35,379 bases of DNA from Candidatus Symbiothrix sp. Lineage in GTDB: Bacteria; Bacteroidota; Bacteroidia; Bacteroidales; Azobacteroidaceae. A program made the translations under genes and the position numbers. Positions 2,653 through 35,379 of this stretch are shown piece by piece (position 1 is the first letter of the stretch; the number at the start of each line of letters is the position of its first letter). Under the pieces are notes generated by a model. That model saw only the letters and a program-made list of their open reading frames with translations. It was not told the DNA's origin and did not search any database. The stretch lies in the NCBI GenBank assembly GCA_031261285.1, contig JAISKM010000065.1, forward strand, positions 1 to 35,379. The letters are read 5' to 3'.

Positions 2653-3366
2653 TTATCTGCTTAATTTTGAAAGTTCAAGATTTAAGTATCCAATTACTTG
2701 TTGAGAAAAGTCTTCTATGGATTCGGATGATATATCTTTTCCTATCGCTGTAAAATTAAAAATACCATTTGATAATTGTGAGATGTGTATGATTATATGA
2801 ATGTATTTGCTCCTATCTTCTTGCTTGTATTCAATAGAAAATAAGTAATATTCTGTAGAGTGTATTTCTATTGACATATTATTATCAATATCACCTGCTA
2901 TTTTTGACCAAATACGACCCGCTAATTCTGCATATTTTCTATCATTAGGATTTTTAGAATTATATTTAGTTTTTAGATTATTCTCATTCTCAAAAGCATC
3001 AAGATTTTTTTCAAACACTTTTTCTAAGTTTTCGGATGTTTTGGATTCGCTATCCAATTTAAAGTTAATGAATGGGTTTTTATTAAACAATAATTTTTGC
3101 ATTTCAGGTGAATATTCTGAAGGAGAGTATAATTTTGCATGATGACAAACAACGAGATAAGCAAAAACACCAAGAAGCAATAGAGGAAATGCAATTATAA
3201 ACCAAATAACAGGAAGCCTCTCACTGTTTGTGGTTAAATAAGAAATATTTGAACTTAAAGTAATTGACCCTAAACCGTACAAAAGGGATATAAACAATGC
3301 AATTATTCCTAAAGGATTCCTTGTGAAATTCTTTGCAGACTTGACAAATTCAGATGTCTTATACAT
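2653..3366 (-). CDS. Hypothetical two-helix membrane protein
   Basis: The ORF track begins at 3468, but its first 34 residues are read from the 3' part and spacer of the structured RNA upstream, so the ATG at 3366 (MYKTSEFVKSAKNF) is preferred, giving 237 residues. Two hydrophobic segments, near NPLGIIALFISLLYGLG and VIWFIIAFPLLLLGVFAYLVV, are separated by a short polar loop. The remaining about 150 residues form a soluble, charged domain with alternating strands (YYLFSIEYKQ, YIHIIIHISQ). No family is recognised. It is the first gene after the RNA element whose U-tract ends 49 bases before this start codon, so its expression may depend on read-through of that element. Confidence 0.6.
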   Translation of the reverse strand: MYKTSEFVKSAKNFTRNPLGIIALFISLLYGLGSITLSSNISYLTTNSERLPVIWFIIAFPLLLLGVFAYLVVCHHAKLYSPSEYSPEMQKLLFNKNPFINFKLDSESKTSENLEKVFEKNLDAFENENNLKTKYNSKNPNDRKYAELAGRIWSKIAGDIDNNMSIEIHSTEYYLFSIEYKQEDRSKYIHIIIHISQLSNGIFNFTAIGKDISSESIEDFSQQVIGYLNLELSKLSR

Positions 3367-3413
3367 ATCTATAGTTTTTCCACCGTCCTGTCCCCTCGTT
3401 CGGCAATTTTTAA

Positions 3414-3645
3414 ATAAAAAAGAAGCATGGGATCTGTTATATCTTATTCCGGTTAGAGGCTCTGACAAAGCCTGACGATGGAATAAGCAAACGGTCCCAT
3501 GCCTCTTGTTTACAAAGACATGGAATATTTGCCTATCACCCTCATCGTCATTTTGAAACTGTCAGATTTCTAACCGAGGATAATATTATAAATACTTCTA
3601 ATCTAAAATGTCCTTCCGAAGTCCAACGCTTTGAACGTTCGGAAT
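3414..3645 (-). ncRNA. Structured RNA, copy A: 5' hairpin plus long bulged rod and U-tract
   Basis: This fills most of the gene-free stretch 3367-3810. Downstream of the minus-strand promoter at 3651-3681 the RNA would open with a hairpin (TTCCGAA 3614-3620 with TTCGGAA 3638-3644), then a GGACATT linker. A long imperfect rod follows: AGAAG 3421-3425 with CTTCT 3595-3599, GGTTAGA 3451 with TCTAACC 3569, TCTGACA 3461 with TGTCAGA 3560, TGACGATG 3473 with CATCGTCA 3543, and GCAAA 3487 with TTTGC 3528, with an asymmetric 9/5-base internal loop. It ends in CTTCTTTTTT. A mutually exclusive fold exists: GCATGGGA 3425 with TCCCATGC 3495 enclosing CTTATTCC 3443 with GGAATAAG 3480. Compared with copy B it shares GAAATCT-GACA(A/G)TTTC on the 5' arm, GTCA-GA-CCTC on the 3' arm, and the GACATT linker. 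A 6S-like small RNA is one possibility; identity is not established. Confidence 0.65.
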
Positions 3646-3650
3646 TGCAA

Positions 3651-3681
3651 CAAAGGTAGAAGTATTTTTTTAATCTACAAA
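3651..3681 (-). promoter_or_regulatory. Bacteroidota promoter for structured RNA copy A
   Basis: On the minus strand TTTG (3678-3681) is followed after 19 bases by TACCTTTG (3651-3658), a perfect match to the Bacteroidota primary sigma consensus TTTG / TAnnTTTG. Transcription should start near 3645, exactly at the base of the first hairpin of the RNA. Confidence 0.75.
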
Positions 3682-19252: not shown

Positions 19253-19816
19253 TTATTGATTATCTAATTTTTTCATTTCTTCGTCAAACACTTTCTTAAA
19301 TTGCTGTTTGTCGAAATCCAACTGCAATTTGGAATCTTTTGAAATACGGTCGGCAATTTTGTTTGCAATAATTTCCTTACTCATTTCGATGGCAATGTAG
19401 TAGGTATAGTTATTTTTATTTTGAAAAACTTTGTCACCGATAATTTTCACATCGTTTAATGATTGATTGACAACCAAAATCGCATTTTCTTCAAATTTAT
19501 TTTCAAACTCCTGTTTGTCTGCCACCGACCGTTGGTTGGTGTACGCTTCCGTAACAGTCTTCACCGTGGTTTGAACATTACTTGCCAACTCCGTTTTGGC
19601 ATTGGTCAACGCAATTTTCTTTGCCGTCGCCAAATTGGGGCTGATGCCGGATTGTGTAGCCCGGAAAAAATCTTTAGTCGAGCGATACTCCTTGTCCGCA
19701 AATGGTACCACAACTTCCGTTGCGCCCTGTTCAACCGCTACTTTTTTACTTTTGCAACCCGTCACCATGACACCTGCACATACTGCTATTGCAGTGAGAA
19801 CCAAAATTTTCTTCAT
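19253..19816 (-). CDS. LPP20-like envelope lipoprotein
   Basis: A lipoprotein signal peptide with Cys21 in MVTGCKSKK anchors this 187-residue protein in the envelope. The rest is an alternating helix-strand domain with ATAKKIALTNAKTELASNVQTTVKTVTEAY and a late YYIAIEMSKEIIANKIADRIS, the pattern of LPP20/LpoB-type lipoproteins found before TPR or PEGA proteins in Bacteroidota. The C-terminus is charged and helical. It is the first gene of the operon continuing with the large exported protein and the PEGA/Sel1 protein, all envelope-directed. Its start codon lies 57 bases after the U-tract of structured RNA copy B, so the RNA could be a leader controlling this operon. The exact function is unknown. 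Confidence 0.8.
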   Translation of the reverse strand: MKKILVLTAIAVCAGVMVTGCKSKKVAVEQGATEVVVPFADKEYRSTKDFFRATQSGISPNLATAKKIALTNAKTELASNVQTTVKTVTEAYTNQRSVADKQEFENKFEENAILVVNQSLNDVKIIGDKVFQNKNNYTYYIAIEMSKEIIANKIADRISKDSKLQLDFDKQQFKKVFDEEMKKLDNQ

Positions 19817-19872
19817 TTGTCTTTTATTTTTTAATTTATATTAGTATTTATCTAACTTTCATTTTTGGACAT

Positions 19873-20120
19873 AAAAAAGCGCGGACAAAACTCAAATCAT
19901 TTGTTTTTATGAGGTTCTTGACTACCTTGACAATCAAATAATGAGTAAAGCCCACGCCAAACGGCGTGAGCGTCATCACTTTACTCTTGATTGTCAATTG
20001 AAATTGTCAAGATTTCATAAAAACAAGATGTAAGCTAAACGCTTTTCCAACAATGTCTCAATGTGCATATCAGCACATTATGTGTTTTATATCATAAGCA
20101 AAAATTATTTCGTATTAATA
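19873..20120 (-). ncRNA. Structured RNA, copy B: AATGTG hairpin, long rod and U-tract
   Basis: This occupies most of the 417-base gap 19817-20233. Reading the minus strand: GCTTATGA, a 7-bp hairpin AATGTGC/GCACATT (20060-20079) with loop TGATAT, a GACATTG linker, then AAAAGCG (20040-20046) closing on CGCTTTT (19875-19881) which runs into six U residues. Inside is a rod: TTGTTTTTATGA 19901-19912 with 20015-20026 (12 bp), CTTGAC 19917 with 20006, TTGACAATCAA 19927-19937 with 19987-19997 (11 bp), GAGTAAAG 19943 with 19979, and a CACGCC-aaac-GGCGTG cap. Copy C at 34724 has the same order of elements, including GCTTACATCTT, GACCTCAT/GAACCTCAT and GCGCTTTTTTATGTC, with stem bases changed in a compensatory way. 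No coding capacity is apparent. Confidence 0.8.
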
Positions 20121-20127
20121 CCGGGCG

Positions 20128-20160
20128 TAAAGATACAAAAAATATTAATAACAATAGAAA
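20128..20160 (-). promoter_or_regulatory. Weak Bacteroidota promoter for structured RNA copy B
   Basis: On the minus strand TATCTTTA (20128-20135) matches TAnnTTTG except for the last base; TTTC lies 21 bases upstream (20157-20160). Position relative to the RNA (28 bases to the conserved GCTTATGA) agrees with copy C (33 bases). Confidence 0.45.
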
Positions 20161-34686: not shown

Positions 34687-34717
34687 TTTGATAATTCAAA
34701 AATTGTGTTTATCTTTG
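34687..34717 (+). promoter_or_regulatory. Bacteroidota promoter for structured RNA copy C
   Basis: TTTG (34687-34690), 19 bases, TATCTTTG (34710-34717): an exact consensus. It lies 54 bases after the helicase stop with no protein start nearby, so it serves the RNA. Transcription is expected near 34724. Confidence 0.78.
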
Positions 34718-34723
34718 CCACCA

Positions 34724-34976
34724 AGTTTAATAATAAAAAAGTAAAAATAGGCTTATGACATAAAATAATGTGTTGATACGCACATTGTAAGACATAGTAG
34801 AAAAGGCGTTTTTCGCTTACATCTTTGTTTGATGAAACCTGAGAAATTTCAAGAACAGCAAAGAGTAAATGAAGACGGTCACGTTTCGGCGCGAATCGGA
34901 TTCTGTTTATTTGGCTGTTCGGGTTTCTCAGGACCTCATCAAAGCAAATAAATTTGAATCCGGTTGGCGCTTTTTT
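34724..34976 (+). ncRNA. Structured RNA, copy C: AATGTG hairpin, long rod and U-tract
   Basis: This occupies half of the gene-free stretch 34633-35140. In order: GCTTATGA (34751), hairpin AATGTGT/GCACATT (34767-34786) with loop TGATAC, AAGACATAG, AAAAGGCG near 34801 closing on CGCTTTTTT (to 34976), then a rod: TTTGTTTGATGA 34824-34835 with TCATCAAAGCAAA 34936-34948, CCTGAGAAA 34838-34846 with TTTCTCAGG 34924-34932 (9 bp), and GAACAGC 34853 with GCTGTTC 34914. Copy B has TATGA/TCATA and CTTGAC/GTCAAG at the same places, so the stems are kept while the bases differ. The 69-residue ORF 34869-35078 in the track overlaps the rod and is not credible. It may be a free small RNA or a leader of the gene at 35141. 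Confidence 0.82.
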
Positions 34977-34996
34977 ATGTCTGTATGTGAGATATT

Positions 34997-35140: not shown

Positions 35141-35379
35141 ATGAAAAGAAATGTATTATTGTTATTGGCTGCTACGTTGTTGGTAGCCGGTAAGTGGTCA
35201 CCGGTAACTGCCCAAGTGGCTATTGGTGGCGACGGCACTGTGACACCGGGTGCGTTGTTAGATTTATCACAAGCCGTTGATGCCGGCGGCTTGTTGCTGC
35301 CACAAATTGAGAGTGCCGATACACTCTCTGATGAGTTAAAAAAGCCGGGCATGCTGGTTTACAACAAAACGGACGGCAA
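35141..35379 (+). CDS. Truncated exported protein (N-terminal 79 residues)
   Basis: An open frame from the ATG at 35141 runs off the right edge; it is absent from the ORF track. It starts with a Sec signal peptide (MKRNVLLLLAATLLVAG, processing probably after SPVTAQ). The mature N-terminus, VAIGGDGTVTPGALLDLSQA then GGLLLPQI and ELKKPGMLVYNKTDG, is the conserved opening of Bacteroidota exported proteins that often continue into FISUMP or tail-fibre-like domains. The rest is not visible, so the function is open. It lies downstream of RNA copy C, a terminator-like stem and an AATGGTT repeat, so its expression may depend on read-through. Confidence 0.8.
   Translation, partial: MKRNVLLLLAATLLVAGKWSPVTAQVAIGGDGTVTPGALLDLSQAVDAGGLLLPQIESADTLSDELKKPGMLVYNKTDG

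Follow-up and report, generated by a model that had tools for sequence, protein, structure and literature searches.

Are the three rod-shaped RNA elements found close together in one contig of Candidatus Symbiothrix sp. (Bacteroidales, Azobacteroidaceae) independent small RNAs, or do they belong to the mRNAs of the genes that follow them? The stretch analyzed, referred to here as the window, comprises positions 1 to 35,379 (35,379 nt) of contig JAISKM010000065.1 in assembly GCA_031261285.1. A sequence-only reading of the window had described a family of three structured RNAs, copies A, B and C, and had taken each for a stand-alone transcript of 230–250 nt ending at a U-tract. Judged from its sequence, the element is instead a 5' mRNA leader rather than a terminated small RNA (sRNA), because two of its predicted helices, P1 and P7, have strands past the U-tract and a same-strand open reading frame (ORF) lies downstream. 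By every test applied, the family of leader RNAs is one that has not been described before, with the subscription literature largely outside the search.

Three copies of one superfamily

All three copies are present essentially where the sequence-only reading had placed them. A Bacteroidota -7 promoter box precedes each one, as it had proposed, and the primary sequence that it quoted as common to B and C is indeed shared. One of the quoted segments, GCTTATGA, requires a correction: it is shared as described, and it contains a start-stop mini-ORF (ATG ATA TAA in B, ATG ACA TAA in C). When each copy was folded against 200 dinucleotide shuffles, no shuffle equaled it (z-scores are given in Table 1).

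A blastn search of the source genome with copy B returned B itself and 39 relatives with 72–86% identity over most of the element. A pattern describing the conserved tail occurred at 32 places in the same genome, compared with none for a reversed-pattern control. Copy A was missed both by blastn with B and by the class I profile hidden Markov model. Two covariance models were compared on all three copies: R1, based on an alignment of 61 rods from the source genome and other genomes (A1), and R2, a class III model of 12 copies with A left out. R1 detected B, C and A (E = 8.8e-7 for A), and R2 detected A (E = 5.8e-16), B (62.2 bits) and C (51.8 bits); the remaining scores are listed in Table 1. 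Since models from two different classes each find all three copies, A, B and C are homologous members of one superfamily, with B and C in class I and A in the sister class III.

Across the source genome, R1 identified 106 places at E ≤ 1e-4, of which about 50 are class I copies scoring above 118 bits, followed by shorter and longer variants. At least four subclasses are present among the matches, differing in their heads and tails while having the core in common. R2 adds 32 places beyond the R1 list (E ≤ 1e-4; lists compared by hand). The total is at least 138 copies in 2.83 Mb, or about one per 20 kb, a lower bound because the number of scored candidates was capped, with rough E-values from both models, and the fold occupies about 1% of the genome. 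The family thus stands while the count of three does not, and the remark that the copies were too numerous for a single-copy housekeeping RNA is borne out by this number.

A few variant copies may be mentioned here. About ten matches to the class III model in the source genome, 224–233 nt in length and scoring 46–76 bits, may represent a further subclass (e.g. C130:22521-22753, C72:21324-21552 and C81:5809-6038). Five contigs of the source genome (C116, C35, C169, C42 and C25) each carry a class II leader and, about 1.3 kb further along the same strand, a class III leader; here paralogous genes stand in tandem, and the kind of leader differs from one gene to the next. Four copies (L040, L068, L097 and L108) are truncated or mosaic, with nothing but the 3' part of the element left. 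At L069:4315-4867 (CASFUX010000253.1), two tandem copies lie within 0.6 kb and the tail of the upstream copy is altered (GCGCCTCATTTGTATC).

A covarying rod with a pseudoknot-like core

From alignment A1, RNAalifold predicted 42 base pairs, and half of these, 21, show compensatory double changes. In a structure set by hand from this result, 95.5% of cells are paired. Cells changed on both sides number 313, compared with 94 in shuffled alignments and at most 39 when the pairing partners were slid. The covariation score is 0.377 as opposed to at most 0.096 after sliding, a comparison that is somewhat favored by the derivation of the structure from the alignment on which it is scored. As the slid controls keep the relatedness of the copies, paralogy alone does not account for the covariation score.

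Amid the variable helices are conserved internal loops with the sequences GAAA, TTTCAA, AGGTA and ACCTC. The 3' strand of helix 3 lies within a GGY:RCC hairpin (pair types UA, CG and AU), and through this strand the hairpin loop pairs with the opposite arm. Because both the hairpin and helix 3 are supported, the core either is a pseudoknot or alternates between two exclusive states. Copy A carries the same GGY:RCC module (GAAATCTGACAGTTTC ... AGGCTTTGTCAGAGCCT). A UC:GG pairing (columns 62-157 and 63-156), also proposed by RNAalifold, shows almost no variation and is a competing alternative to the GGY:RCC hairpin, which is preferred for its compensatory pair types.

A start-stop mini-ORF beside exclusive helices

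Directly upstream of the rod, about 95 of 100 class I copies contain a mini-ORF consisting of a start codon and an in-frame stop two to six codons on (90 were assigned by script and the remainder by eye where the script chose a wrong start). TAA, TAG and TGA are all used as stops, and the frame is kept through changes in length, as in the variants ATG ATA TAA, ATG AAG ACA TAA, ATG ATG ACA TGA and ATG ACA CAA AAA GCG TAG. Either ATG-ACA-TAA or ATG-ACT-TAA recurs in other families despite differing surroundings.

The strand that follows the mini-ORF (ATACGCACAT type) forms either a local hairpin, P0, or helix P1 with ATGTGCGTAT just past the U-tract. Competing for one strand, P0 and P1 are mutually exclusive. 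Compensatory variants of P1 include GTGCGTACAT/ATGTACGCAC and ATACGCGCAT/ATGCGCGTAT, and a comparison with permuted partners gave z = 10.7 over 165 copies and z = 5.8 over 28 copies from other families. The permutation z-score of P0 is 6.5 over the 165 copies. Helix P7 joins TTGTCC, upstream of the U-tract, to GGACAA, downstream of it; variants of this helix include GTACC/GGTAC, GTGCC/GGCAC, AAGTCCC/GGGACTT and GTTTGCCC/GGGCAAAC. Its permutation z-score is 7.9 overall and 3.4 in other families, the support coming from the other classes and families. The layout proposed in the sequence-only reading is sound with respect to the rod and the U-tract and too short with respect to its end, as conserved pairing runs past the U-tract in most members.

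Position ahead of genes for exported proteins

Statistics on genes and positions cover the fetched loci. The -7 box precedes 89 of 99 copies, compared with about 11 expected by shuffling, and is the TAnnTTTG promoter box reported for flavobacteria (PMC9723704). An ATG-initiated ORF begins on the same strand within 260 nt in 59 of 64 copies from the source genome and 41 of 44 from elsewhere (100/108), at a median distance of 66–67 nt from the tail; on the divergent side, an ORF within 260 nt is found in 31 of 79 cases. A transcript of 230–250 nt that stands alone and ends at the U-tract does not agree with strands that covary past the U-tract, nor with the gene that starts about 66 nt downstream in these 100 copies.

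A crude signal-peptide rule fits 50 of 59 downstream proteins in the source genome and 32 of 41 in the others (82 of 100), compared with 44% of background ORFs. The genes themselves are diverse and encode lipoproteins, an LRR/BACON protein, a PEGA protein, an FkbM methyltransferase, a UvrD-like helicase, TonB receptors and a large family of exported proteins with TAQVAIGGDGTVTPGALLDLSQ.

Dispersed repeats are found at several of these loci. A palindrome of the ATTCCCGCG..CGCGGGAATCCC type is inserted directly after the promoter box in many leaders of the source genome; in L009, L024, L039, L180, L183 and L189 it lies between the -7 box and the mini-ORF. Other palindromic inserts (TTGCGGATCAAGTCCGCAATGACA or GGGCCAAACATGTTTGGCCC-like) occur in frame within the signal-peptide coding region of the genes at L032, L184, L187 and L195, where they encode LRIKSAMT or GPNMF..P segments. 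A second dispersed repeat, GATCCCGCACAAAGTAGCGAAGAGCGTTTG, is located between leader and gene at L017, L027, L033 and L038.

Occurrence in other genomes

Homologs with covariation in other genomes, which the sequence-only reading had named as a test of its proposal, were found. The exact tail pattern identified 59 stretches in a collection of genomes from 85,462 species, nearly all of them in Bacteroidales. Many carriers are metagenome-assembled genomes of insect-gut-like origin (Candidatus Symbiothrix, Prevotellaceae, Dysgonamonadaceae, Tannerella and others); further carriers belong to Alistipes, including the isolate A. muris DSM 112343, Coprobacter, Culturomica and Prevotella. Two matches to the tail pattern, one in an acidobacterium and one in a clostridium, do not belong to the family, as an nhmmer profile search detects no element there. 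The tail pattern is absent from viral contigs and a phage origin was rejected on this ground.

With six candidates scored per genome, R1 matched 145 of 393 sampled Bacteroidales genomes, representing 82 of 204 genera. In a phylum-wide sample, 28 of 297 genomes matched; most of these are from other orders of Bacteroidia, and several of the matches in those orders precede genes for SusC-type TonB receptors. Two copies that precede the same Alistipes gene (L042 and L067) have rods that differ at one base; the position can be stable between species. The rods of another pair before a common gene (L055 and L062) have diverged.

Proposed mechanism and rival explanations

The fold and the mini-ORF are shown by the sequences, and the regulatory role is inferred. 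It is moderately likely that the element is a cis-acting 5' leader of mRNAs for mostly exported surface proteins, in which ribosome occupancy of the mini-ORF selects P0 or P1. The leaders may in this way tie the expression of a gene to the translation of a mini-ORF of two to six codons. The order of parts read from the sequence is promoter box, mini-ORF, P0, rod, U-tract, the downstream strands of P1 and P7 and, about 66 nt past the tail, the gene. A ribosome initiating or terminating on the mini-ORF would cover the 5' side of P0. With P0 blocked, the common strand would pair with the distant strand of P1, so that the rod would be closed and the U-tract hidden. If no ribosome occupied the mini-ORF, P0 would form, P1 would open and P7 would become possible. 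In this way the downstream gene would be switched at the level of elongation, decay or translation. A common factor or ligand probably binds the conserved internal loops of the rod, among them the GGY:RCC hairpin, and one signal could by this means control the whole regulon.

An in silico mask for a ribosome footprint on the mini-ORF shifted the balance in the predicted direction, as far as an energy model can indicate. Among 69 copies with a strong P1, the mask lowered P0 from 0.20 to 0.04 and raised P1 from 0.49 to 0.63; for copies of the source genome, P1 rose from 0.33 to 0.67. Several observations weigh against the mini-ORF switch. Class III copies, A included, have no evident mini-ORF, and it is also missing in some members of other families. 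P7 does not covary within class I (z = 0.3–1.6, and about 0 outside the source genome), a null result partly due to the collection pattern, which fixes the 5' strand of P7. P0 on its own has little support in copies from other genomes (z = 1.3–1.5), and the permutation z-scores for P0, P1 and P7 do not remove relatedness. In copies B and C, P1 is short or imperfect and P7 cannot be made out clearly.

The main rival is the action of a ligand or protein through the conserved loops, which may hold true together with the mini-ORF switch. Taken on its own, a riboswitch or protein-binding leader, in which the loops of the rod sense a ligand or regulator and the mini-ORF is incidental or serves only to stabilize the mRNA, appears rather doubtful. 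Such a leader is compatible with class III, which keeps the core without the mini-ORF, and would agree with the conserved internal loops amid variable helices and the pseudoknot-like core. The presence of many copies per genome before diverse genes for exported proteins is also a property of c-di-GMP riboswitches in some species. However, a riboswitch leaves the conserved frame of the mini-ORF unexplained, and the diverse downstream genes do not suggest a ligand. An element of processive antitermination or transcript stability, acting on RNA polymerase or decay without any switching, would account for a large conserved fold at the 5' end of a transcript and for the Flavobacteriales-like relatives that precede SusC-type TonB receptor genes. 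It is considered unlikely, as P0 and P1 are exclusive and covary separately, which suggests a switch.

The two remaining explanations separate the element from the gene that follows. An independent trans-acting sRNA ending at the U-tract, as the sequence-only reading had it, agrees with the promoter ahead of each copy and with the U-tract that ends the rod, and partial termination there may occur. The covariation of P1 and P7 strands past the U-tract and the regular start of a same-strand gene make such an sRNA very improbable. Less probable still is a mobile repeat similar to a miniature inverted-repeat transposable element or a repetitive extragenic palindromic sequence, spreading as DNA with no role as RNA. 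Such a repeat could have left behind the more than 100 dispersed copies, of which many lie near contig ends and some are truncated, but compensatory changes are present in almost every helix, the sense position between promoter and gene is fixed, and the position before the same gene is stable in two Alistipes genomes. Moreover, viral contigs lack the tail pattern, and similarity fades at both ends of the element with no common end sequence, no formal search for target duplications having been made.

If the mini-ORF switch is true, many mRNAs for exported proteins in a dominant phylum of the gut would begin with one and the same RNA fold. To our knowledge, Bacteroidota are without Shine-Dalgarno leaders, and the element would provide a handle on how surface proteins in this phylum are regulated after transcription start. 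Relatives in many other Bacteroidia, the isolate Alistipes muris DSM 112343 among them, make its function testable in the laboratory.

Comparison with known RNA families and systems

Copies A, B and C matched nothing in Rfam, either at curated thresholds or at E up to 5, and cmscan of the window together with relatives from other families and orders (E up to 5–10) matched no Rfam family. The sequence-only reading had likewise been unable to place the element in Rfam, and the clean match to a described family that it had named as refuting its proposal did not turn up. Its suggestion of a relation to 6S RNA (RF00013) or Bacteroidales-1 (RF01693) is not supported, as neither was matched in that search. 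The 6S RNA is produced from one or two stand-alone genes per genome and mimics an open promoter, whereas the family described here has at least 138 copies located before same-strand genes. Flavo-1 was rejected as well, there being no cmscan match at E up to 5 in relatives from other orders of Bacteroidia, its likeliest hosts. The fold is thus missing from Rfam despite its spread in a dominant gut phylum.

Structured RNA motifs confined to Bacteroidota include Bacteroidales-1, Bacteroides-1, Bacteroides-2 and Flavo-1 (Weinberg 2010, PMC2864571). The element resembles these motifs in being structured and restricted to Bacteroidota and differs in matching none of their Rfam models, a comparison that leaves out Bacteroides-2, which is without an Rfam accession in the table of PMC2864571. 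Two palindromic candidates from Bacteroidetes, HMP2_1032 and HMP2_4205, are predicted terminators, one of 106 bp near TonB genes and one of 132 bp near TPR genes (PMC8040213). An overlap of these candidates with the inner rod of some members is conceivable; they are set apart here by their description as short palindromes. In B. thetaiotaomicron, long 5' untranslated regions with short ORFs have been noted, the element itself not being described (PMC7366714). No description of the element was found in the literature searched, which mostly excludes subscription papers.

The general kind of element, an mRNA leader with alternative structures, is already known. The tetQ leader of the Bacteroides conjugative transposon CTnDOT is presented in a review (PMC5418344, citing Wang et al. 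2005) as a case of translational attenuation. Compared by description, it is the closest worked example and operates similarly to the proposed model; it differs in serving a single resistance gene with an inducer and in having neither a rod nor a multi-copy regulon. The leader peptide of tetQ has only about three codons and acts through alternative hairpins. With leader-peptide attenuators of the tetQ/ermC kind, the element has in common exclusive structures that share a strand beside a short ORF (P0/P1) and, in class I, a conserved, putatively translated short upstream ORF, which is absent in class III. With riboswitches it has in common an aptamer-like conserved fold in a 5' leader, as seen from its loops, covarying helices and position. 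The c-di-GMP-I riboswitches form multi-copy regulons with many leaders before diverse genes for surface or exported proteins. The family described here likewise has many leaders per genome; it matches no riboswitch family in Rfam, and its leaders add the start-stop mini-ORF. The unusual features of the family are its copy number, the start-stop ORF, the pseudoknot-like core and the randomized arms.

Hypervariable helix arms among paralogs

The last of these features is most evident in pairs of class I copies from the source genome in which both flanks are 91–97% identical (L030/L034, 97 and 91%; L006/L019, 94 and 94%). In such pairs the variable helix columns agree at 53–63%, compared with 50% in all pairs, and the unpaired columns of the rod agree at 86–90%. 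The identity of an arm to its nearest neighbor has a median of 0.74, compared with 0.72 expected under independent draws. Where pairs have changed, most have changed on both sides with pairing retained. Why paired arms should be randomized between paralogs with nearly identical flanks is an evolutionary question raised by this family.

Some copies have an inner cassette in common while their outer arms differ, so exchange of nested segments among copies probably contributes to this variability. Avoidance of cross-pairing between more than 100 rods may be offered as a guess. A wider proposal, held only tentatively, is that of a superfamily extending throughout the class Bacteroidia which couples ribosome traffic on the mini-ORF to a regulon of exported proteins, and in which each leader of a genome has its own self-complementary arms, diversified after duplication so as to keep more than 100 similar rods from cross-pairing or recombining.

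Features of the three window copies

The coordinates of the three copies and of the genes that follow them are collected in Table 1. The GAAGGACATTTT head of copy A recurs in other class III copies.

Table 1. Positions in the window of the leader elements and adjacent genes for copies A, B and C
Feature	Positions	Strand	Basis
Copy B, -7 box TATCTTTA of promoter	20128..20135	-	read from sequence
Copy B, start-stop mini-ORF ATG ATA TAA	20087..20095	-	read from sequence; start and in-frame stop conserved in class I
Copy B, local hairpin P0 (AATGTGC..GCACATT)	20060..20079	-	folding; P0 covariation (z 6.5 over 165 copies)
Copy B, rod, class I	19869..20053	-	188 bits with R1; fold z -7.7
Copy B, ATGTC, pairs with GACAT at 20053-20057 (short form of P1)	19868..19872	-	sequence
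Gene 3' of copy B, 187-aa lipoprotein-like protein, ATG 52 nt past leader tail	19253..19816	-	ORF; no confident Pfam family
Copy C, -7 box TATCTTTG of promoter	34710..34717	+	read from sequence
Copy C, start-stop mini-ORF ATG ACA TAA	34755..34763	+	read from sequence
Copy C, local hairpin P0 (AATGTG..CACATT)	34767..34786	+	sequence, folding
Copy C, rod, class I	34795..34980	+	131.9 bits with R1; fold z -5.3
Gene 3' of copy C, exported protein MKRNVLLLLAATLLVAGKWSPVTAQVAIGGDG..., ATG 160 nt past tail, cut by window end	35141..35379	+	ORF
Copy A, -7 box TACCTTTG of promoter	3651..3658	-	read from sequence
Copy A, 5' hairpin (class III head), then GGACATTTT	3614..3644	-	sequence and folding
Copy A, rod, class III	3414..3606	-	95.9 bits with R2 (built without A), 39.1 bits with R1; fold z -7.0
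Copy A, conserved class III tail (TTGCCGAACGAGGGGACAGG)	3387..3406	-	sequence, other class III copies
Gene 3' of copy A, 237-aa protein, ATG 47 nt past rod	2653..3366	-	ORF; no Pfam family
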